From contig QKED01000046.1 of NCBI GenBank assembly GCA_003252455.1, forward strand, positions 1-64,000: a DNA stretch of 64,000 nt, in the 5' to 3' direction. The DNA is from Gammaproteobacteria bacterium (GTDB lineage Bacteria > Pseudomonadota > Gammaproteobacteria > Thiohalomonadales > Thiohalomonadaceae). Each line of letters starts with the position of its first letter. Within the stretch, counting starts at the first letter, position 1. Under the pieces are notes generated by a model. The model had not been told where the DNA came from. It did no database searches and was given only the letters and a program-made list of their open reading frames with translations. Positions 593 to 59,281 of this stretch are shown here, in pieces. Position numbers and translations under genes: made by a program.

Positions 593-1652
593 ATCGCAAC
601 GCTGGTTTCTGTTGGCGATCGGTCTGGTGCTGGTCGGGTTGGTCTACCTACTGGCACCGATCCTGACCCCCTTCCTGGCCGCCTCCATCCTCGCCTACAT
701 CGGCGACCCCATCGCCGACAAGCTGGAGGCGCGTGGCATGACCCGTACCCTCTCGGTGGTCACCGTCTTCTCCGTCCTCACCCTGGTGCTGCTGATCCTG
801 CTGCTGATCCTCATCCCCTCGGTGCAGGGGCAGGTCAAGCTGCTGATCAGTCATATCCCACGCTACATCGCCTGGCTCCAGGAACAGGGGCTACCGGCCC
901 TCGGTACCCTGCTCGGCTATGCCGAGGAGGAGTTCGGGGTCGGCGAGCTGAAGTCCTACCTGGGGGATATGCAGGGGGCCGGTGGGGCGCTCGGCAAGCT
1001 GCTCGCGCTGCTCGGCCACTCGGGCCAGACCCTGCTGCACTGGGTCGCCAACCTCACGCTGATCCCGGTGGTCACCTTCTATATGTTGCGCGACTGGGAC
1101 CTCATCGTCGCCCGCGTGCAAGAGCTGCTGCCGCGCTACCTGGAGCCGCGCATCACCCGCCTGGCGCGCGAGTCCGACGAGGTGCTCGGCGCCTTCTTCC
1201 GCGGCCAACTGCTGGTGATGTTGGCGCTCGGCACCCTCTACTCCATCGGCCTGGCCATGGTCGGCCTCGACCTCTCACTGCTCATCGGCATGCTCGCCGG
1301 GCTGGTCAGTTTTGTGCCTTACCTCGGCGCCATCACCGGCATCCTAGTCGCGGGGCTCGCGGCCATTATGCAGTTCCACGACCTGCTGCATCTGGTCCTG
1401 GTGGCGCTGGTGTTCGGCGTCGGCCAAGCGGTGGAAGGGATGCTCCTCACCCCGCTGTTGGTGGGCGAGAAGATCGGCCTGCACCCGGTGGCGGTGCTCT
1501 TCGCCGTGCTCGCGGGGGGGCAGTTGTTCGGCTTCTTCGGCATCCTCCTCGCCCTGCCGGTGGCCGCCGTGGTGATGGTGCTGCTGCGCTACGCCCACCA
1601 GCGCTACCGCCACAGCGAACTCTACGGCGAGGGGTGCGATGAGCAAGGCTAG
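585..1652 (+). CDS. perM: AI-2E family transporter / PerM-like permease
   Basis: The 355-residue protein is a polytopic inner-membrane protein of the AI-2E/PerM family. Two N-terminal hydrophobic helices (about residues 8-30 and 57-80) are followed by an amphipathic central region (about 80-150). Further transmembrane segments run to the end and include the conserved TPLLVGEKIGLHPVAVL stretch and the GILLALPVAAV stretch near residues 285-325. Members are putative exporters with no firmly established substrate. The gene sits directly upstream of hda and overlaps it by 14 bases, a pairing seen widely in gammaproteobacteria. The ATG lies inside the end of the preceding gene. Confidence 0.9.
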   Translation: MSESQRWFLLAIGLVLVGLVYLLAPILTPFLAASILAYIGDPIADKLEARGMTRTLSVVTVFSVLTLVLLILLLILIPSVQGQVKLLISHIPRYIAWLQEQGLPALGTLLGYAEEEFGVGELKSYLGDMQGAGGALGKLLALLGHSGQTLLHWVANLTLIPVVTFYMLRDWDLIVARVQELLPRYLEPRITRLARESDEVLGAFFRGQLLVMLALGTLYSIGLAMVGLDLSLLIGMLAGLVSFVPYLGAITGILVAGLAAIMQFHDLLHLVLVALVFGVGQAVEGMLLTPLLVGEKIGLHPVAVLFAVLAGGQLFGFFGILLALPVAAVVMVLLRYAHQRYRHSELYGEGCDEQG

Positions 1653-2334
1653 CGGCGGGGTGCAGCTGCCGCTCGGCCTCGCCCTGCGCGACGGCTTCGG
1701 CCTCGACAACTTCCACCCCGGCGCCAACGCCCAGGCGCTGCACGCGGTGCGCGAGGCGCAGCTCCCCTTCATCTACCTCTGGGGTGCCTACGGCAGCGGG
1801 CGCAGCCACCTCCTGCAGGCGGCGGTGGGCGCCGAATCGGCCCCGGCCCTCTACCTGCCCCTGGCCGAGGCGCGTGACTACGGCCCGGAGATGCTCGAAG
1901 GGCTGGAAGAGATGGCGCTGCTGGCCCTCGACGACATCGAACAGGTGGCCGGGGAGCGCCCCTGGGAGGAGGCGCTGTTCCACCTCTACAACCGCCTACA
2001 CCTCGCCGGAGGGCGCCTGCTGGTGGCCGCCGACCGCGCCCCGGTCAATCTGCCGCTGCTGATCCCCGACCTGCGCACCCGCCTCTCCCACGGCGTCACC
2101 CTACAGCTCCAGACCCTCGACGACGACGGCCTCGCCGCCGCGCTACAACTGCGCGCCGCCCAGCGTGGACTAGAGCTGGGTGACGAGGTGGCCAGCTACC
2201 TGCTGCGCCGCGCGCCGCGCGACAGTCACGCGCTGTTCGAGTTGTTGGAGCGCCTCGACCAGGCGAGCTGGGAGCAGAAGCGGCGGCTGACGGTGCCGTT
2301 TGTGCGCGGGTTGTTGGACACCCCCGAACACTAA
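1639..2334 (+). CDS. hda: DnaA regulatory inactivator Hda
   Basis: Hda is a DnaA-like AAA+ protein that binds the DNA-loaded beta clamp and stimulates ATP hydrolysis by DnaA, preventing re-initiation of replication. The 231-residue length fits the family. The N-terminus VQLPLGLAL resembles the clamp-binding QL(S/P)L motif. The Walker A region reads WGAYGSGRSH, with Arg in place of Lys as in known Hda proteins, and the Walker B region reads LLALDDIE. A DnaA-type lid follows with no C-terminal DNA-binding domain IV. It is the last gene of the perM-hda operon. Confidence 0.93.
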   Translation: MSKASGGVQLPLGLALRDGFGLDNFHPGANAQALHAVREAQLPFIYLWGAYGSGRSHLLQAAVGAESAPALYLPLAEARDYGPEMLEGLEEMALLALDDIEQVAGERPWEEALFHLYNRLHLAGGRLLVAADRAPVNLPLLIPDLRTRLSHGVTLQLQTLDDDGLAAALQLRAAQRGLELGDEVASYLLRRAPRDSHALFELLERLDQASWEQKRRLTVPFVRGLLDTPEH

Positions 2335-2502
2335 GGTCTGCTTGCCCGGTTGCGGGTTGTTTGGGGTTACGCTCTGTCGTGCGCGAGCGCCGCCCATCCC
2401 CCTCCTCATCTTTGAACAACCTACGCTCTCCATGGCTTGGCAAGCGCTGGCGCAGGCCGCTCTAGTCGACAGAAGAAACATGTGAACTCAGTCTCAGACG
2501 GG

Positions 2503-2511
2503 TGATATAGT
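2503..2511 (+). promoter_or_regulatory. Candidate extended -10 promoter of the M48-helicase gene
   Basis: A TGATATAGT sequence forms an extended -10 element (TG-N-TATAGT) in an AT-richer patch about 100 bases upstream of the ATG at 2609. No convincing -35 box is visible, which is tolerated at extended -10 promoters. This is a prediction from the motif and position only. Confidence 0.4.
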
Positions 2512-2524
2512 CCATCACACCTAA

Positions 2525-2540
2525 CAACCTTTTTAGGTTG
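2525..2540. repeat. Small inverted repeat (CAACCT-TTTT-AGGTTG), possible operator
   Basis: Six-base perfect arms CAACCT and AGGTTG flank four T residues, just downstream of the candidate -10 element and about 70 bases before the start of the M48-helicase gene. The position near the expected transcription start would suit an operator or a 5' mRNA hairpin. The rest of the 274-base gap after hda shows no gene. Confidence 0.4.
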
Positions 2541-2608
2541 CATGTGTGGGGGCGCCCGCGCTTCGTGCCGTGGCGCTCGCTTGTTACGTCCAATACGGGG
2601 GATGGAGT

Positions 2609-5600
2609 ATGTCGCACGAGCCGCTGCCGACTGAGGATGGGAGGGCTAGCCGCATTTTGCAGCCCATGGAGACGGCCTCGATCCGCTTTGTCGGCGAGGA
2701 GACCTATGCCAGCCAACTGTTGGCGATTCCCGGCCTGCTGGGTATCGGGGCGGAAGGGGTCGTCGATACGAGCAGGATCCGCCGTCGGCTACTGGCGCAA
2801 TCACTCCTGTTGAGCGAGGGCATGGCCCCAGCGGTCTATGCACTGGCGCGAGAGTGTGCCGAACGCTTCGGGATCGCGGCCCCTATCGAGTTGTATCAAG
2901 CCGATGGCGCCGAAAATGCCGCCATGCATCTGCTCGACTCCCCCGTCTTGTTGGAGGTGCAGGGGAAGCTACTCGCGCTGCTCGATGACGGCGCGCTCAG
3001 TGCGCTGCTCGGCCACGAACTCGGCCACTATCTGGCGCACGGCCTCGATGGTCCGCATGCGCCGCTGATCGGGGCCCTTACCGCCATCTTTACCAAGCAG
3101 GGCGTCGCCGAGGATGTGCTCGTGACGGCGCTGCGTTACAGCATGGCGAGGGAGTTGACCGCCGATCGCTTCGGCCTCCTCGCCTGTGGCGACCTCGATG
3201 CGGCCCTGAGACTGGAGATGGTGGTGGTCACAGGCCTCTCCAGTGACACCCTGACCTGGGATACGCAGGCCTACCTGGCACAGAGCCGGGCGCTGATCGA
3301 GGAGACCCTGGCGCAGGGCGAGACGACGCAGATCTCGACCCACCCCGAACACAGCCTGCGGGCCTACGCCTTGTGGCTGTTCAGTGAGACCGACCTCTTT
3401 CGCGCACTCACCGGTAAGGGCCCAGGGAGTCGCAGCGTGGCCGAGGTGGATGCCGTGCTGATGCGCATTCTCGGTGCGCCATCGGTGCAACTCGGGATGG
3501 CCGAGCTGCTCGATGAGCCGCCACCGGAGATGCACGAGTGCGCCCTCGCCGCCTGCGTGTTGATGGCCTTCGCCGATGGCGAGATGCACGACAGTGAACT
3601 GGAGGCGATCGAGCGTGTCTTCGCCCCGCTGCTGGGGCACTGGCGTGAGCTGCTCGACCCAGACACGGCGCTCGCGCGCTTTCAGGCGCTGGCGCCGCTG
3701 GTGATCAACGCCGGACCCAAGATGCAGCGTGCCCTGTTCGTGTTGCTGACACACGTACTCGCCGCCGATGGCGAGGCGCACGAGGGGGAGGTCGAGGTGC
3801 TGCTCGGCATAGGCAGCGCCTTGGGTTGCCTCTCCCTCTATCGCGAGTTGCTGCGCCCGGTGCTGGACCATTTTGGGCTAGAGCCGGAGCTGCTCACGGG
3901 ACTCGGGCGGGTCATCCCCATGCCCGCGCGGGTCGCCGAGGCCAAGGAGGCGCTGCGGGTCTACGTCGAGGAGACCGCGCGCAGAGGCAGTGGCCGGGTC
4001 ACGTTGCGCCGCCTACTGCGCTTGATGGGTGAACAGAGCGCCAATGCTCAGGTGCTCGACGAGATCCAGCGTGGTCTGACGCGTGCCGATCTGCTCTGTG
4101 AGCCAGCGTTGGGTGAGTCGTTGGATACGCTGCACGAGTTACGCCTCACCCCGGAGCGTGCAGCAAGCCGCGAGGCCCATCCGCCCGCACCCCCGGTCGG
4201 CTTGGGCGAAGAGGGCGCGCGGCTGCGTAACGGCCTGGCCAGGCTGCGCGACCAGCTGATCTCGGGGGATGGGCGTAGCCCTTCGGTTCGGCTACGCCGC
4301 TGTCGTACAGGGGCCAGCCTCGATCTCTATCTGCTCGAAAGGGTCTCGACCGGGCTCGCCGAACGCACCTTGACCCTGCTCCGCTCACATCGGCGCGCGC
4401 GTCTGCTCGATGCGGCGGAGACGGGCGTACATGAGGGGGCCAAACAGCTGGCGCGGGAGTTGGTGGCACTCGACCGCGAGCATCGCGCCCGCCTGGAGGA
4501 GAGTGGCGCGCATGACCTGCACCTGGGTTACCCCTTTCTTACCGGTGTAGTGAACGGCTATCTGTTCCGCGCGCCGTTACTGCTCTTTCCCGTGCACATC
4601 ACGCGCGATAACCGCGGGGAGGAGGCGATCACCCTGCGACCTGTGGAGGGGGCCGACACCCTGATCAACCAATCGGCATTACGCATGATCTTCTCGCGTC
4701 GCGGCAGCCGCTACACCGAGGAGATGAGTGAGCGCCTGGATGCGGCGGCACAGGAGTCGGTCGAGGTGGTGGTCGAGACCTTGGCGGCGCTCGGCCTGCC
4801 TACCATGGCGGTGCGCGGGGAACTCACCGCCTTCCACGATCGCTCCGAAGAGTTGGACACATGGCGTGATGACCGGCTGGAGTTGGAGGAGTGTGCCGTG
4901 CTCGGGCTCTTCCCGCAGTCGAGCTCGGAGCTGCTGCAAGACTACGATGAGCTACTCGCGGCACTCGATAGAGGCGAGTCGGCGGCGCAGCTGCTCGGCT
5001 GTGCGGTGGATCTGCTGCCGGAGGATCTCAAGGCGCACCTGGCGACCCCCTTCACCCCCGTCGATGCCGAGGCCGCCGCGCCTGTGCCGGTCATCTACGC
5101 CGACCCGAGTCAGCGCGCCGTGTTGAGCAAGGCGCGCGCGACCCGCACCCTGGTCGTCGATGGCCCGCCGGGCACCGGCAAGAGTCAGGTGATCGTGAAC
5201 CTGGTCGCTGATGCGCTTGCGCGGGGCGAACGGGTAGCGGTGGTGTGTGAGAAACGCGCGGCGCTGGATGTGGTCGCGAACCGCCTGGAGGGTGTCGGCC
5301 TGCGCCATCTGTTGGCCGTGGTACACGATGTGCAGGAGGACCGACGGGCACTCTATGACCAGGTGAACGCGCGTTTGTCGGATGATGAACGACGTCGCGA
5401 TCCCCTTGAGGCGATCAAAGGGGTGGCGGGGGAGGTGAAGGGCCTCTTCGCCGGGCTCAAAGAGAAGGCTGTGGTGCTCGCCACCCGCCATCTGGGGTTG
5501 GCGCTGAGTGAGTTACATACCTATGCCAGCTCGTTTGTCGGCGTGACAGCCGCTCGACACAGCGGAGTCGAAGGGCTGACGCTGGCGCAGGTAGAGGCCT

Positions 5601-8407
5601 TGGCCGCGGACATGGAGCGCCTGCGTCCGTTTGCCGACCTGTGGGCCGAGGGGAGCCTCTGGCTCGCCCCGCAGGCGAGCGTGACACGCCAGCGTGTAAG
5701 TGGCTTCGATGCCACACAGCGGGCGGAGCTGACGCGGGCCATGCAGGAGGCGGTCGGTGCGGCCAAAGCGCTTGAGGCGAGTTGTGTGCAACAGGCGCAG
5801 GCACCTGATTCGCTCGCCCTCTTGCAGGGGAGTCGCAGCGCTATTCTGGCCGTGCGTGACGGCGCGCCTCGGCGTGCCAGCGCGGATATGCGCAGCCTGT
5901 TTCTAGCCGCACTCAGCCGAGCAGAGGCGGGCGGGTCACGGCTGGACGCATTCGACCAACTGCAGCGACAGTGGCGCGACGCCGCCAGCGCCGTGGCACG
6001 CTTCGATACCCCCGTGGATCTCGCGCTGGATGTAGCGCAGCAGCAGGCGCTGGAGGTGATCGTGCATGCGGCTGGTGGGCTCGGGCGCTATCTCTCGCCC
6101 GCCTGGTGGCGCGCGCGTGGGGTGTTACGCCGAGTCTTGCTCACACAGTGGCCGGAGATGAGCGCGGCACCGATCGACCTGGCCTTGGCTGGCGCGCTAC
6201 GTGATCGGCAACAGGCGGCAGCGTTTTGGCGCGCGCTGGAGGGGCTGGCCCTGATGGTGCCCGATCTCACCACGCCTCAGCGCGCCGGGGGCATCGACGC
6301 CTGGTTGGGCGAGGCCGCCGCCGTGTTGCGCGACGCCTTCGCCATCGCTTGTTTGCGCCCGACACTTGAGCCGATTGCGGCATGGCCCCGCGCTTGGCTG
6401 CCGCCGCTGCTCGACGAGTGGGAGCGGCAGCTCGGCGAGCGTCTTGAGCTGCTAGAGCTGGCCGAGCGGCTCGCCGCGGTGGTCAGGCCCGTCACCACAC
6501 TCGTGCCGTGGCTGGAGCCGCTGCCGCCGAGTCGGCGCCTGGAGGAGCTCTTGGCGAGTTGGCTACGCGAGGGTGAGCGCCTTGCCGAAGCCGACCGCTG
6601 GTTGGCCTCGGCCTCTGCCGTCTATCCCAGTGCCGAGTCGCTACTGCGTCAGCTCGCATCCGCGGCGACGGCGCTGCCGGGCAGTTGGGCCGACGCGGTG
6701 CGCAAGGGGTGGGCGCAGGCCGCCGTCGAGGTGGTGCAACAGGCCCGCCCGCAACTGCAACGCGTAGATGCCGAGAGCGGACAGGGTGATGCGCTGCTTG
6801 GTCAACGGCTTGGTCGGCAACTGGCAGAGTATGCCGAGCTGCACGTCGAGCGCATCTTGGCGCGCCAAGACGAGCGCCCGTTATTGCAGGTGAGAGCGGC
6901 GGAGAAGGGTAAACGCCGGACCCCAGAACAGGCCCTGGTCGAGACGCTGCAAAAAGAGACGCGCAAGAAGAGCCGTCTACTGCCGTTGCGGACCTTCACG
7001 CGGCGCTTCTACACCGAGGGGTTACTCGATCTACTGCCGGTCTGGTTGCTCTCGCCCGAGACCATCGCCGTGCTCTTCCCGCGTGAGCCGGTGTTCGACT
7101 TGGTGATCCTTGACGAGGGCTCGCAGTGCACGGTCGAGAATGGCCTGCCGGTGTTGATGCGCGCGCGGCGTGGCGTGGTCGCCGGGGACGAGCACCAGAT
7201 GCCGCCGACCAACTTCTTCAAGCGCGCTGGTGATGATGAGGAGATAGAGGTAAGTGCCGCGCGTGAGATGTTCGATGCCGAGTCGCTGCTGGTGCTGGCG
7301 CGTGCGCGCGCGGCGCACAGCGGGCTTCAGTGGCACTACCGTTGTCTGCACGAGGAGCTGATCGCCTTCTCCAACCATGCGATCTACGGCGGTGGCCTGC
7401 GCACCATCCCCTCGACTTCGAGCCGTCTCGCCCCTGCCGCCGTGCGTTGGGTCGAGGTACCCGACGCCCAGTACGAGGCCGGGGTCAACGCGCGTGAGGC
7501 AGACAAGGTCGTCGATCTCATCGCCGAGTTGTTGGCCGACCCGACGGCACCGACCCTGGGTGTGGTCACCTTCAACCTCAGCCAGCGGCGCGCGATCCTC
7601 GATGCGCTCGATGCGCGTCAGGTGAGCGACCCGCACTTTGCGCAGCTGTATACCGCAGCGATGAGCCAAGAGATGGTCGACCGCCGCCCCTTCGTGAAGA
7701 ATCTCGAATCGGTGCAGGGGGATGAGCGCGACGTGATCCTCTTCTCGCTCGGCCACGCCCCGGTCGAACGAAAAAAGGCCAACGGCGCGGTGGACCGCTA
7801 CGTTCCCGCGCGCTTCGGCCCTTTGGGGCAGCGCGGTGGTGAGCGGCGTTTGAATGTGGCGATCTCGCGGGCCAAACAATCCATCATCGTCGTCGCCTCC
7901 TTCGAACCCGAGCTGCTCTCTGTCGCGCGCAGCCGCAACGAGGGCCCCAAGCTGTTCAAGGCGTTCTTGGAGTTCTCTCGCTCCATGGCCGAGGGGCGGC
8001 GCAGCCAGGCGGAGCGGGTACTCGATCGTGTTCGAGCCAGCCCGCAGACGACCGTCGCGGTGGCGCGTGACACGCGTCCTGAGGGCTATGTCCCACTCAA
8101 GGCCCAGATCGCCCTGGCGTTGGAAGCGCTGGGGATCCGCTGTGAGATGGATGTGGGTAGTTCGGCATTTCGGGTCGATTTGGCCATCATCGACCCTGCG
8201 GATCGGCATTTCTATCGCTGGGGGATCTTGTGCGATGAGGGGGGCGAGCCGCGCACGCCACTGGAGACCCATGTGCATGTCCCCAACGTATTGGCCATGC
8301 GTGGCTGGCGGCTCCTTCGTGTCACGGGGCGAGAGTGGGATCGCAATCGAGAAGGAGTGCTCGCCAGCGTCGGCAAAATGCTCGGCGAGAGGTCGGGCAA
8401 CGCCTGA
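2609..8407 (+). CDS. Giant fusion: M48-type metalloprotease, TerB-like, DUF4011-like, SF1 helicase, Vsr-like nuclease
   Basis: This 1932-residue protein has, in order, an M48-like zinc protease (HELGH at 136-140, third ligand Glu182 in ELTADRF) and two TerB-like helical repeats (about 305-440, each with an ADGE motif). A DUF4011-like region follows (about 530-800, including APLLLFPV), then a superfamily 1 helicase. The helicase has Walker A GPPGTGKS at 852-859, DEGSQ at 1502-1506, and ISRAK near 1752. The C-terminus is a Vsr/MTES_1575-like nuclease (FRVDLAI at 1854, ILCD near 1873). No signal peptide or membrane helix is seen, so it is probably cytoplasmic. The DUF4011-helicase-Vsr part matches the Hhe-type antiphage architecture; I do not know the N-terminal protease-TerB fusion from described systems. 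The ATG was chosen over one 63 bases upstream because of a GGATGGAG element. It stands alone between hda and a GGDEF-EAL gene. Function is inferred. Confidence 0.85.
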   Translation: MSHEPLPTEDGRASRILQPMETASIRFVGEETYASQLLAIPGLLGIGAEGVVDTSRIRRRLLAQSLLLSEGMAPAVYALARECAERFGIAAPIELYQADGAENAAMHLLDSPVLLEVQGKLLALLDDGALSALLGHELGHYLAHGLDGPHAPLIGALTAIFTKQGVAEDVLVTALRYSMARELTADRFGLLACGDLDAALRLEMVVVTGLSSDTLTWDTQAYLAQSRALIEETLAQGETTQISTHPEHSLRAYALWLFSETDLFRALTGKGPGSRSVAEVDAVLMRILGAPSVQLGMAELLDEPPPEMHECALAACVLMAFADGEMHDSELEAIERVFAPLLGHWRELLDPDTALARFQALAPLVINAGPKMQRALFVLLTHVLAADGEAHEGEVEVLLGIGSALGCLSLYRELLRPVLDHFGLEPELLTGLGRVIPMPARVAEAKEALRVYVEETARRGSGRVTLRRLLRLMGEQSANAQVLDEIQRGLTRADLLCEPALGESLDTLHELRLTPERAASREAHPPAPPVGLGEEGARLRNGLARLRDQLISGDGRSPSVRLRRCRTGASLDLYLLERVSTGLAERTLTLLRSHRRARLLDAAETGVHEGAKQLARELVALDREHRARLEESGAHDLHLGYPFLTGVVNGYLFRAPLLLFPVHITRDNRGEEAITLRPVEGADTLINQSALRMIFSRRGSRYTEEMSERLDAAAQESVEVVVETLAALGLPTMAVRGELTAFHDRSEELDTWRDDRLELEECAVLGLFPQSSSELLQDYDELLAALDRGESAAQLLGCAVDLLPEDLKAHLATPFTPVDAEAAAPVPVIYADPSQRAVLSKARATRTLVVDGPPGTGKSQVIVNLVADALARGERVAVVCEKRAALDVVANRLEGVGLRHLLAVVHDVQEDRRALYDQVNARLSDDERRRDPLEAIKGVAGEVKGLFAGLKEKAVVLATRHLGLALSELHTYASSFVGVTAARHSGVEGLTLAQVEALAADMERLRPFADLWAEGSLWLAPQASVTRQRVSGFDATQRAELTRAMQEAVGAAKALEASCVQQAQAPDSLALLQGSRSAILAVRDGAPRRASADMRSLFLAALSRAEAGGSRLDAFDQLQRQWRDAASAVARFDTPVDLALDVAQQQALEVIVHAAGGLGRYLSPAWWRARGVLRRVLLTQWPEMSAAPIDLALAGALRDRQQAAAFWRALEGLALMVPDLTTPQRAGGIDAWLGEAAAVLRDAFAIACLRPTLEPIAAWPRAWLPPLLDEWERQLGERLELLELAERLAAVVRPVTTLVPWLEPLPPSRRLEELLASWLREGERLAEADRWLASASAVYPSAESLLRQLASAATALPGSWADAVRKGWAQAAVEVVQQARPQLQRVDAESGQGDALLGQRLGRQLAEYAELHVERILARQDERPLLQVRAAEKGKRRTPEQALVETLQKETRKKSRLLPLRTFTRRFYTEGLLDLLPVWLLSPETIAVLFPREPVFDLVILDEGSQCTVENGLPVLMRARRGVVAGDEHQMPPTNFFKRAGDDEEIEVSAAREMFDAESLLVLARARAAHSGLQWHYRCLHEELIAFSNHAIYGGGLRTIPSTSSRLAPAAVRWVEVPDAQYEAGVNAREADKVVDLIAELLADPTAPTLGVVTFNLSQRRAILDALDARQVSDPHFAQLYTAAMSQEMVDRRPFVKNLESVQGDERDVILFSLGHAPVERKKANGAVDRYVPARFGPLGQRGGERRLNVAISRAKQSIIVVASFEPELLSVARSRNEGPKLFKAFLEFSRSMAEGRRSQAERVLDRVRASPQTTVAVARDTRPEGYVPLKAQIALALEALGIRCEMDVGSSAFRVDLAIIDPADRHFYRWGILCDEGGEPRTPLETHVHVPNVLAMRGWRLLRVTGREWDRNREGVLASVGKMLGERSGNA

Positions 8408-8555
8408 AGAGGGGGCGTGGTAACGCCGCAGCAGGATTGCCACTCGGGTGGGCGGACGAAGGCATAGGTGGCGCGTATTCTCGGTTCAAGGCGACTTGTT
8501 GTCGGGCCGCTTGATATGAAACTATCGAGGCTTGTTGATGACAGGCTGAAGCTAA

Positions 8556-10961
8556 GTGACCAGCGCCGAGCAACCCCTCGCTCCCACGTTTGAACTGCTC
8601 GAACTGATGCAGGACGGCGTCTTTACCGCCGATGGCGAGGGGCGCTACACCTACGCCAACCCCGCTGCCCTGCGTCAGGTGGGCTACACCCTGGCGGAGT
8701 TGACCCGTCGCTCCATCGTCGACCTGGTGGTGCCCGAGCAGTATGCCCGCCTGCCTGACCATCTGGCGCGGATGGACGCCGGTGAGCTGCTCTCCAGCGA
8801 GTGGTTGATGCTGCGTAAGGATGGCAGTCGTTTTCATGCCGAGCTCTCCACCCGCCGCCTGCCGGACGGGGGCTACTTGGCCATCTCCCGCGATATCAGC
8901 GCACGCAAGCGCAGCGAGCAGGAGATGTTGGAGCAGCAGGCGATCTACCGCGCGATCGTCGACACGCCCGCCGAGGGGTTCTGGATGGCGGACCTGGATG
9001 GGCGCTTGCTGGAGGTGAACGGGGCCTACGCGCGCCTCTCCGGCTACAGTCGAGAGGAGCTGCTCTCGGGGATGCGTATCACCGACCTGGAGGCGCAGGA
9101 GACGCGCGAGGAGACCGAGGCACACATCCATCTGTTGCGCGAGCGTGGCTACGACCGTTTTCGCACCCTGCATCGGCGCCGTGACGGCAGTGTCTGGCCG
9201 GTGGAGATCGTCACCACCCTGCACCTGGAGCTGGCCGGTGGTTGCCTCTTCGTCTTCATTGAGGATATCAGCGACAAGGTGCAGAGCGAACGGGAGCTGC
9301 GCATTGCCGCCAGTGTGCTGGAGACCATGGAGCAGGCGGTGGTGGTGACCGATGCGCACAACCGCATCATCTCGGTCAATCCGGCGCAGACGCGTATCAC
9401 CGGTTACACCCTCGACGAACTCTGCGGCCAGGACCCCAAGGTGTTCGCCTCTGGCCGTCACGATGAGGAGTTTTATGCGCAGATGTGGCACGACCTGGCG
9501 CTGCGCGACCATTGGGCCGGGGAGATCTGGGACCGCAAAAAGAGCGGTGAGGTCTATGCCAAGTGGCTCAACATCAATGTGTTGCGCAACGCCGACGGCA
9601 GTGTCCACCAGTATATCTCGGTCTTCTCCGATATCACCGAGAAGAAGCGCTCCGAGGAGCTGATCTGGCAGCAGGCCAACTTCTGCCCACTCACCGAGCT
9701 GCCCAACCGGCGCATGTTCACCGACCGCCTGGAGCAGGCGATCCACAAGGCGCGGCGCAGCGAGGGGCGTCTCGCCCTGCTCTATATCGACCTCGATCAC
9801 TTCAAGGAGATCAACGACACCCTCGGCCACAGCATGGGCGACACCCTGTTGCGCGACGCCGCCAAGCGCCTGGTCGGTTGTGTGCGCGAGAGTGACACCG
9901 TGGCGCGCCTGGGGGGGGACGAGTTCACCGTGCTGCTGGTCGACCTCCCCTCGGAGCAGACCGTGGAGCGCGTGGTGCAGGCGATCCTGCACAAGTTCGT
10001 CTCCCCCTTCCAGCTCGGCAGCGAGGCGAGCTACGTCACCCCGAGCATCGGCATCACCCTCTTCCCCGAGGATGCCGACGACGCCGAGAGTCTGCTCAAG
10101 AACGCCGATCAGGCGATGTACGCGGCCAAGCGTCAGGGGCGTAACGGCTACCACTACTTCACCCCGGCGATGCAGGAGGGGGCGCAGTTTCGCATGCGTC
10201 AGTTGCGTGACCTGCGTGCCGCGGTGGCCAATGCCGAGCTGCGCGTCTACTACCAGCCGATCGTCGACCTCGCCGACATGGGTATCCGTAAGGCCGAGGC
10301 GCTGCTGCGTTGGCAGCACCCGCAGCGTGGCCTGCTCGGTCCGGGCGAGTTCATCGCCCTGGCCGAGGAGAGCGGACTCATCGTGGAGCTGGGCAACTGG
10401 GTATTTCGTGAGGTGATCGCCCAGGTATGCCGCTGGCGCGAGCGGATCCACCCGGAGTTTCAGATCAGCGTCAACAAGTCACCGTTGCAGTTTCGTCGTG
10501 ACCTGGAGGGGGGCAGCTGCTGGCTCTCGCAGATGCAGGCGCAGGGGCTGCCGGGCAGTGGCGTGGTGGTGGAGATCACCGAGGGCTCGCTGATGGAGAG
10601 CAACTCTCAGGTGCGCAACCGCCTCATCGAATTCCGTGAGCGCGGCATCCAGGTCGCGCTGGACGACTTCGGCACCGGCTACTCCTCGCTCGCCTACCTC
10701 AAGCGCTTCGACATCGACTACCTGAAGATCGATCAGACCTTTGTGCGCAATATGACCGCCGACTCCGACGACCTGGCGCTCAACGAGGCGATCATCGTCA
10801 TGGCGCACCGCCTCGGCATCGAGGTGGTGGCGGAGGGGGTGGAGACGGCAGAACAGCTCGCCCTGCTCAAGGCGGCCGGGTGTGACTACGCCCAGGGCTA
10901 CTACTTTTCACGCCCGGTCCCGGCGCAGGCGTTCGAGCGCCTGCTACAGCAGCAGGCCGAG

Positions 10962-10976
<15 letters not shown>
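8556..10976 (+). CDS. PAS-PAS-PAS-GGDEF-EAL cyclic-di-GMP signalling protein
   Basis: The 806-residue protein carries three PAS domains (about 10-125, 130-250 and 255-370), a GGDEF diguanylate cyclase domain with an intact GGDEF at 453-457, and an EAL phosphodiesterase domain with EAL at 581-583, DDFGTGYSS and VAEGVET. Both catalytic signatures are intact, so it may both make and degrade c-di-GMP. No transmembrane helix is evident, which suggests cytosolic sensing through the PAS domains. The start is a GTG; an ATG slightly upstream runs directly into a stop. Its end overlaps the convergent DUF2069 gene by 15 bases. Signal and targets are unknown. Confidence 0.93.
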
Positions 10977-57328: not shown

Positions 57329-59281
57329 CTATTCGGCGGGGTCTTGCTGATTGCCCAGGGGGCGATTGATGACCATCATGATGGTCTTGATCTCCTTGAA
57401 CTGGCGATCCACCACGGCCAGCGCCTTCTCCAGCTCGTCGATACGCGACTGCAACGTGTCGCGCGACTCGTTGATCTTGCGCAGGTTCTCCAGGCGCTTC
57501 TCCATCTGCTCCTTGTGCTCCTTGATCTGCTTGACCAGTGGGAGCAGCACCGCTTTACCCCAGTGCTCGGCGTCGTTGTGACCCTTGAAGAAGATGTTGC
57601 GCGCGTGCGAGGCGAGAGAGATGAAGAACTTCTTTATTACGAAGCTCTGCTCGGTCATGGTGGTGACCGGGCTGTTACGGAACGCCTCGGCATCGTGGTA
57701 GAGGCGCTTCATGTCGCGCATGTAGCCCTGGGTGGAGAAGAGCACCGGCTTGAGCTCGGTCATGCCGTGGTCTTCGTGGAACTTCTTGTAGATGGTGATG
57801 ACCAGGCGGTTGAGCTGGTTGGCGTAGTTATTCACCTCGGTGAACTTCTCGGTAATGCGGTCGAAGAAGAGCTTCATGCCGTCCTTGAGGCCGTGGGTGG
57901 TCCAGGAGTCGGACATCACGGTACGCGTCTCGGCCAGTAGGGCGTCGATCTCGGAGAGGGCGAGCATCGCCTGGAGCTTCTTCGCCTGCTCACCGAGCAG
58001 CTTCTTGTTGGCCTGGAAGCTCTCGACGTTCTTGTAGTAGGCGACCTGCTCCTCGCGGGTCTTCTTCATCAGGTGCTGGATCACCTCGTCGTTCTTGCCA
58101 CCGAGGCCCTTGAGCTCGTTGAGCTGTTTGGAGATGGCGTTGACGCGCCCCTCCAGCAGGTCGTAGGACTGCTTGACCATGGCACCGATGGTGCCCACCA
58201 CGTGCTCACGCACCAGACGCTGCTTGTGCGGCAGGATCTCGTTGGCGAGGATGTTTTCGAGGCGCAGGATGTTGGTGCGCTTGAGCAGCTCCTCGTCGTG
58301 GCGGATCTTGGCCAGCAGCGCCTTCTGCGCCGATGCGGGGATGATCTGCTCGGGGGCGATACCGAGATTGATCGCCGCCTTCTTGCGCTGCTCGGCGATC
58401 ACTGCGTTGACCTGCTCGACGGTCTTGAGGTCGTCCCACAGGGTGTCGATCTTGTTCAGAACGACGATCAGCCCCTTCTCGTTGCCCTCGCGCATGGGGC
58501 GCACATTGTGCTTCCACATGTCGAGGTCGGACTTGGTCACACCGGTGTCCGCGGCGAGGATGAACATCACCGCCTGGGCGTTGGGCAGCATGTTGATGGT
58601 CAGCTCGGGCTCGGAACCGATGGCGTTGAGGCCGGGGGTGTCGAGGATCACCAGGCCCTGCTTGAGCAGGGGGTGGGGGAAGCTGATCAGGGCGTGGCGC
58701 CACACCGGGATCTCGATCTCGGTGGGCACCTTGCCGTTGATGTGCAGGTGGGTGTCGCTGTCGGAGTAGAGGCCGAGTTTGCGGGCCTCCTCCAGCGGGG
58801 CCATCTTGGTCTTGACGCTCTCCTTGAAGGCGTCGGCCATGTTCTCCGGGTTGTCGAGGTCCAGCTCGATGGTGGTCCAGCGCATCGGCTCTTCCTTGAG
58901 CTGGGCGATGCTCTGGTCCTCTAGGCGGGTCTCGATGGGCAGAAGGCGGATGTAAGCGGCCTGATGCTCGGTGTCGTAGAGCAGCTCGGTGGGGCACATG
59001 GTGGTGCGCCCGGCCTCGGAGGGGAGCAGACGGCGGTCGTATTCGGAGAAGAAGATGGCGTTGATCAGCTCGGTCTTGCCACGGGCGAACTCGGCGACGA
59101 AGGCGATGGAGAGGCGATCACCCTGCAGCGCGCTGAGCACCTCGTAGATGCGCAGGTCGTCCTCGGTGCTGCCCATCTCGTTGATGTCGAGCCATTTTTG
59201 GAAGTGGGTAATGCCCTTGATGAGGTCACTCTTCCACTGACCATAGGCGCGCATCTGTTCATTAAAACGTTTGTTAGCCAT
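57329..59281 (-). CDS. Dynamin-like GTPase
   Basis: The 650-residue protein has a large GTPase domain: G1 AEFARGKT (63-70, with Ala in place of the first Gly), G2 Thr in GRTTMCPTEL (91-100), G3 DTPGLN (214-219) and G4 NKID (276-279). About 115 residues separate G2 and G3, more than usual. Helical stalk-like regions follow (about 330-640) with coiled coils near 350-460 and 590-640. No membrane helix is seen. Bacterial dynamin-like proteins remodel membranes, and some act in stress or phage defence; no partner gene is adjacent. GC-rich hairpins isolate it. Function unknown. Confidence 0.88.
   Translation of the reverse strand: MANKRFNEQMRAYGQWKSDLIKGITHFQKWLDINEMGSTEDDLRIYEVLSALQGDRLSIAFVAEFARGKTELINAIFFSEYDRRLLPSEAGRTTMCPTELLYDTEHQAAYIRLLPIETRLEDQSIAQLKEEPMRWTTIELDLDNPENMADAFKESVKTKMAPLEEARKLGLYSDSDTHLHINGKVPTEIEIPVWRHALISFPHPLLKQGLVILDTPGLNAIGSEPELTINMLPNAQAVMFILAADTGVTKSDLDMWKHNVRPMREGNEKGLIVVLNKIDTLWDDLKTVEQVNAVIAEQRKKAAINLGIAPEQIIPASAQKALLAKIRHDEELLKRTNILRLENILANEILPHKQRLVREHVVGTIGAMVKQSYDLLEGRVNAISKQLNELKGLGGKNDEVIQHLMKKTREEQVAYYKNVESFQANKKLLGEQAKKLQAMLALSEIDALLAETRTVMSDSWTTHGLKDGMKLFFDRITEKFTEVNNYANQLNRLVITIYKKFHEDHGMTELKPVLFSTQGYMRDMKRLYHDAEAFRNSPVTTMTEQSFVIKKFFISLASHARNIFFKGHNDAEHWGKAVLLPLVKQIKEHKEQMEKRLENLRKINESRDTLQSRIDELEKALAVVDRQFKEIKTIMMVINRPLGNQQDPAE

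Follow-up and report, generated by a model that had tools for sequence, protein, structure and literature searches.

Read from its sequence, the 1932-residue protein encoded at 2609-8407(+) of the window (the whole 64,000-nucleotide stretch analysed here) combines an intact helicase and an intact M48 protease with a C-terminal nuclease-like domain whose active site has been lost. We propose it as a putative antiphage or foreign-nucleic-acid surveillance protein of the DUF4011/Upf1-like SF1 kind in which the output would have changed from DNA cleavage to proteolysis, a proposal that we consider about evenly poised between right and wrong. The change of output is suggested by the joint pattern in M48-associated proteins, which have lost the nuclease active site while keeping the M48 zinc ligands and, in the fused proteins, the helicase residues.

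Domain content of the fused protein

The target gene is a single uninterrupted open reading frame with a GGAG-like ribosome-binding site immediately 5' of the ATG at 2609, and the frame read on the opposite strand contained many stops. Its product has the domain order M48, TerB, DUF4011, Upf1-like SF1 helicase, and MTES_1575/Vsr-like domain (Table 1). The intact frame and the Pfam matches bear out the fusion of M48, DUF4011, helicase, and Vsr-like parts in one chain that the first-pass annotation had described.

M48 enzymes are mainly familiar from envelope and protein quality control (BepA, HtpX). The Pfam M48 match covered residues 101-255 above the gathering cut-off, and the zinc-protease residues reported earlier as intact were verified; the target has an M48 fold together with an HExxH motif and a downstream Glu ligand. 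The HExxH, E, and D were conserved in 11/11 helicase-associated members. A structure predicted for residues 1-564 (mean pLDDT 81) had no significant Foldseek match at its N-terminus, and VIA-align returned M48 and TerB-type matches. The N-terminus resembled BepA (52-271, Z 8.5) and 3c37 (Z 8.3; both about 35-271), and the M48 domain also matched the fold of ZMPSTE24. Unlike membrane-bound M48 enzymes, the target had no convincing membrane segment in a hydropathy scan, with one borderline peak near residue 1472.

The TerB domain scored below the Pfam cut-off for the target protein alone, and was recognized through profile and fold matches to TerB-type structures. A profile built from 16 relatives reached HtpX and the TerB-type structures 2ou3 and 2h5n (E 6e-4), and residues 302-420 of the predicted structure matched PG1108/2h5n, which was deposited as a "protein of unknown function" and is called TerB-like here by sequence match. 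Two acidic ADGE-type half-motifs lie in this domain, and the simplest account of the two TerB-like repeats counted earlier is that each is one half of a single TerB domain. TerB also appears among the components of the Shango and Bunzi defence systems (PMC10952713). The weak matches of the segment that follows were to several unrelated chains, some of them of winged-helix type.

The helicase belongs to the Upf1/SMUBP-2 type and has the complete set of SF1 motifs claimed for it, from Walker A through motifs II-VI. AAA_11 and AAA_12 (E 3.6e-17) both exceeded their Pfam gathering scores, the DUF4011 match was likewise above its cut-off, and the tested helicase catalytic residues were invariant across the six fused proteins compared.

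Table 1 Features of the target gene and its insertion site, in window positions.
Feature	Position	Strand	Residues and basis
Full ORF, M48-TerB-(wHTH-like)-DUF4011-SF1 helicase-degenerate Vsr/MTES_1575	2609..8407	+	1932 aa; open frame, Pfam
M48 metalloprotease domain	2771..3418	+	about residues 55-270; Pfam E 1.6e-7, fold match, hydropathy
HELGH zinc motif	3014..3028	+	residues 136-140
ELTADR: E182 third zinc ligand, D186	3152..3169	+	residues 182-187
TerB domain	3512..3874	+	about residues 302-422; profile match 2ou3/2h5n, VIA Z 9.3 to 2h5n
Possible winged-helix domain, weak	3941..4174	+	about residues 445-522; VIA Z about 4
DUF4011 region	4211..5068	+	Pfam core 603-689, E 5.7e-10
SF1 helicase core 1A, Walker A GPPGTGKSQ (852-860)	5069..5398	+	Pfam; Upf1/SMUBP-2 similarity
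Long variable insertion	5399..6898	+	residues 931-1430; 5% of positions invariant in fused family
SF1 helicase motifs II-VI	6899..7978	+	DEGSQ, GDEHQMPP, WHYRC, QGDERD, NVAISRA; AAA_12
Degenerate MTES_1575/Vsr-like domain, predicted inactive	8081..8383	+	residues 1825-1925; LCDE, without His
PAS-GGDEF-EAL gene	8556..10976	+	same insertion as target, between hda and DUF2069
hda, left edge of insertion	1639..2334	+	adjoins DUF2069/wrbA in nine relatives

Nuclease active site across the M48-associated family

The homologue search suggested by the first-pass annotation returned six fused relatives with the domain order of the target, five at full length and one truncated by a contig end: a Betaproteobacteria MAG (L013), a Sulfuricellaceae genome (L014), a Rhodocyclaceae genome (L015, the truncated copy), Azoarcus indigens (L016), L064, and L130. 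At four further loci (L038, L065, L131, and L132) an M48 gene was followed by an overlapping or adjacent gene for a DUF4011-helicase-Vsr protein. The pair at L065 overlaps (1834-3051 and 3044-8746) and its helicase protein carries an additional C-terminal WGR domain. The helicase gene at L038 was split into two frames in the assembly (4688-10352) and may be a pseudogene or reflect a sequencing error. The occurrence of both fused and overlapping-gene arrangements shows that the protease belongs with the helicase.

Stand-alone M48-TerB proteins of ~400 amino acids were found in many Gammaproteobacteria (L066 and L069-L075; for example L066:8746-9948(-)). They share the module with the target but have no adjacent helicase, occur in ordinary contexts, and apparently form an uncharacterised, widespread protease family; three of them (L073-L075) lie in one and the same conserved setting, close to tuf and a birA-like gene. 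Searches of viral contigs, phage records, and plasmids for the M48-TerB module gave no match. In the M48 tree the fused and two-gene proteins grouped together against the stand-alone proteins (97/95), while the helicase tree placed the fused and two-gene clades apart at borderline significance (AU p 0.046). As the two trees disagree, recruitment of M48 may have taken place once or twice.

The C-terminal domain of the target matched MTES_1575 over residues 1833-1922 (44.8 bits vs a cut-off of 38.2). Its Vsr-like identity, asserted at first pass, thus stood as a domain signature, but not as a catalytic site: the family consensus ECDG..H has become LCDE without the His, and with both D retained and both E and the H gone the residues of a PD-(D/E)xK-type catalytic centre are incomplete. 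We surveyed the active site in aligned C-terminal domains of 46 distinct proteins, 10 with M48 and 36 without (ProA, Hhe, and others). The metal-binding Glu of ECDG was present in 0/10 proteins with M48 and 36/36 without. The first nuclease Glu (0/10 vs 34/36) and the His (0/10 vs 33/36) followed the same division, and the RIDL/RVDL Asp persisted in 6/10, the target included, vs 36/36. Some of the controls were taken from 369 genomes drawn evenly from the class, within which the ECDG Glu occurred in none of four M48-linked proteins and all 13 others. The raw Fisher p of 2.5e-10 for M48 presence against loss of the nuclease Glu overstates independence, because the ten M48-associated proteins form just two clades rather than ten separate events.

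The Vsr-like "nuclease" of the M48-associated proteins is thus very probably dead, judging by its residues. Since the active site is gone in 10/10 of them, there would be no working Vsr nuclease and hence no "restriction" output of the kind first envisaged, while the idea of the protease as output has been strengthened. Anyone annotating M48-linked proteins by their helicase-Vsr half only would mistake them for nucleases.

Insertion site and genomic neighbourhoods

The target gene was absent from 19 genomes of the host's family. In nine of the 19, perM/hda (or pgsA-like/hda) was directly followed by DUF2069 and wrbA (arsC in most), whereas in the window the target and the PAS-GGDEF-EAL gene separate hda from DUF2069. 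The GC3 of the target was 0.79 vs 0.85-0.91 in six window genes. Comparison of these sites and of base composition shows the target gene to be a mobile accessory.

A defence-island context, which had been anticipated for the family, was seen at some relatives and not at others. L130 adjoins a complete GajA-GajB (Gabija) pair, with integrases and a MOBH-type TraI relaxase nearby. L016 has TraI_2/TraD, Wadjet (II) JetB/JetC, AbiEii, and a DUF262-type gene as neighbours, and L132 lies near a SIR2-type candidate system (PDC-S65) and a HEPN/RES toxin. HigB and a PD-Lambda-2_B-like antitoxin were found near L014. The window copy is outside any defence island and has ordinary neighbours, as do L015 (guaBA), L064, and L131. 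DUF4011 genes can also be core genes, as at the flank of P. aeruginosa cDHS1 (PMC10250203). An all-against-all neighbour comparison of the 11 M48 loci identified no conserved partner gene other than the MOBH-type relaxase in two. Elsewhere in the window, a dynamin-like GTPase gene at 57329-59281(-) weakly matched PADLOC LeoBC (E 1.3e-6).

Known helicase systems, proposed mechanism, and alternatives

The Hhe-type likeness first recognized in the C-terminal part was upheld by both the PADLOC (E 1.6e-77) and NCBIfam (E 2e-105) Hhe models. Hhe (NF042953, PDLC02194) has DUF4011, SF1 helicase, and MTES_1575/Vsr in the same order as the target; unlike the target, the Hhe protein that we aligned keeps ECDG..H and has no M48-TerB. 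The closest helicase relatives were instead antiphage ProA (NCBIfam NF058533, E 1e-162) and PADLOC PDC-S37 (E 4e-156, with the best stretch at model positions 284-1337 of 1550). The target belongs to neither Hhe nor ProA as these are defined, with 353.6 bits against the NCBIfam equivalog cut-off of 2000 for Hhe and 543.7 against 1500 for ProA. The Hhe, ProA, and PDC-S37 models do not cover the N-terminal M48-TerB module, in agreement with the earlier view that it lies outside the described system.

ProA differs from the target at both ends, having an intact nuclease motif and a DUF3320 tail, and an N-terminus made of a beta-sandwich and a Cys/His domain weakly like transglutaminases where the target has M48-TerB. 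In the ProA proteins that we collected (L080-L091, residues about 1-340) the domain after the beta-sandwich has a Cys and a His that do not vary (TC-D ... GHAF), a pattern that recalls transglutaminase-like proteases. Should the resemblance hold, ProA too would join a protease to a helicase, in its case alongside an intact nuclease; such a protease is tentative, as the listed structure matches cover mainly the beta-sandwich. Our literature search, which was thin on subscription journals, found no description of M48-DUF4011 proteins, and the paper behind the name "ProA" was not found in it.

In Mokosh, the helicase occurs with a PLD domain (type II), or with kinase/NERD domains plus a PLD partner (type I). 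Mokosh (MkoA/MkoC) resembles the target in tying an SF1 helicase to effector domains, but the helicase part alone matches (E 1e-28), and we rejected membership because Pfam found no PLD, NERD, or kinase domains in the target chain. Our verdict from these comparisons is that the target probably works like a helicase of the Hhe/ProA group bearing a different weapon.

By analogy, the DUF4011-helicase part would recognize an aberrant nucleic acid of infection, such as a replication or transcription intermediate. An ATP-driven rearrangement or oligomerisation, probably relayed via TerB, would then un-gate the M48 active site, and M48 would cleave a host or phage protein, leading to growth arrest or blocked phage replication. 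The vestigial Vsr domain may be retained as a nucleic-acid-binding or structural part. The analogy is with Hachiman, in which the HamB helicase detects DNA that is damaged or replicating and thereby opens the gate on the effector (PMC12278908). In protease-HamA fusions the HamA nuclease motif is lost and proteolysis is helicase-dependent; the trypsin-like protease of HamMAB and the caspase of Canu activate a separate pro-enzyme, with the pro-nuclease gene immediately upstream in the protease-Hachiman case (PMC12799240). The target family likewise joins a protease to a putative defence helicase and has lost the older nuclease motif. We found in the target none of the distinguishing parts of HamMAB/Canu (a trypsin- or caspase-type protease, HamB helicase, HamA nuclease, or pro-nuclease gene), and did not assign it to these systems, given its M48 protease and the 11 loci with no conserved partner.

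The M48 protease could instead be an initiator that, as in HamMAB and Canu, activates a separate pro-enzyme, for example a nuclease or another toxin, whose gene lies close by or somewhere else. The precedent is exact in that gain of a fused protease is accompanied by decay of the former nuclease motif (PMC12799240), but its pro-nuclease gene is immediately upstream, and the M48 loci share no partner beyond the relaxase noted above; we regard an initiator role as unlikely. Because no pro-nuclease partner is conserved next door, unlike in Hachiman, the single fused chain may suffice. We tentatively entertain, at rather less than an even chance, an immune enzyme complete in itself, with a helicase as sensor, M48 as the direct executioner, and the Vsr nuclease as an inactivated scaffold; the weapon would have been swapped in a second helicase lineage, in parallel with and independently of Hachiman, without a pro-nuclease partner and possibly repeatedly.

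Other readings concern the purpose of the protease or the fate of the nuclease. The presence of an HExxH protease and a helicase within one system, and the ordinary neighbours of both the window copy and the stand-alone M48-TerB proteins, would suit quality control or DNA-protein crosslink repair, in which the helicase finds a blockage and the protease strips the protein (SPRTN/Wss1-like) with no mainly antiphage role. The very patchy distribution, the empty sites, and the conjugation and defence neighbours of relatives would be unusual for a housekeeping repair gene, and we find this reading improbable. Equally doubtful, or slightly more so, is a chance fusion in which the module is a regulatory or folding passenger (a TerB-linked stress protein) and not an effector: independent M48-TerB genes do exist, but none of the zinc ligands varies, and the module persists in either form, fused to the helicase or encoded by a gene of its own next to it. 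Both ends might also act, with the Vsr-like domain a nuclease of rearranged active site regulated by the protease. The domain passes the MTES_1575 cut-off and the D of RVDL is kept in six of the ten M48-associated proteins, but that D is itself lost in the other four and the metal-ligand Glu, first Glu, and His in all ten, making this very unlikely.

The best reading of these sequences is that the M48-linked DUF4011 helicase is a variant of the Hhe/ProA/PDC-S37 kind with a putative proteolytic output. Its protease, helicase, and nuclease are all different from those in the published Hachiman nuclease loss, and the protease-Hachiman pattern (PMC12799240) is extended to another helicase family. 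The rule that the nuclease is dead where the protease is present holds across two gene arrangements and makes effector swapping directly testable. Few protease effectors are known in bacterial immunity. The pattern suggests that helicase sensors are general platforms with an exchangeable weapon.
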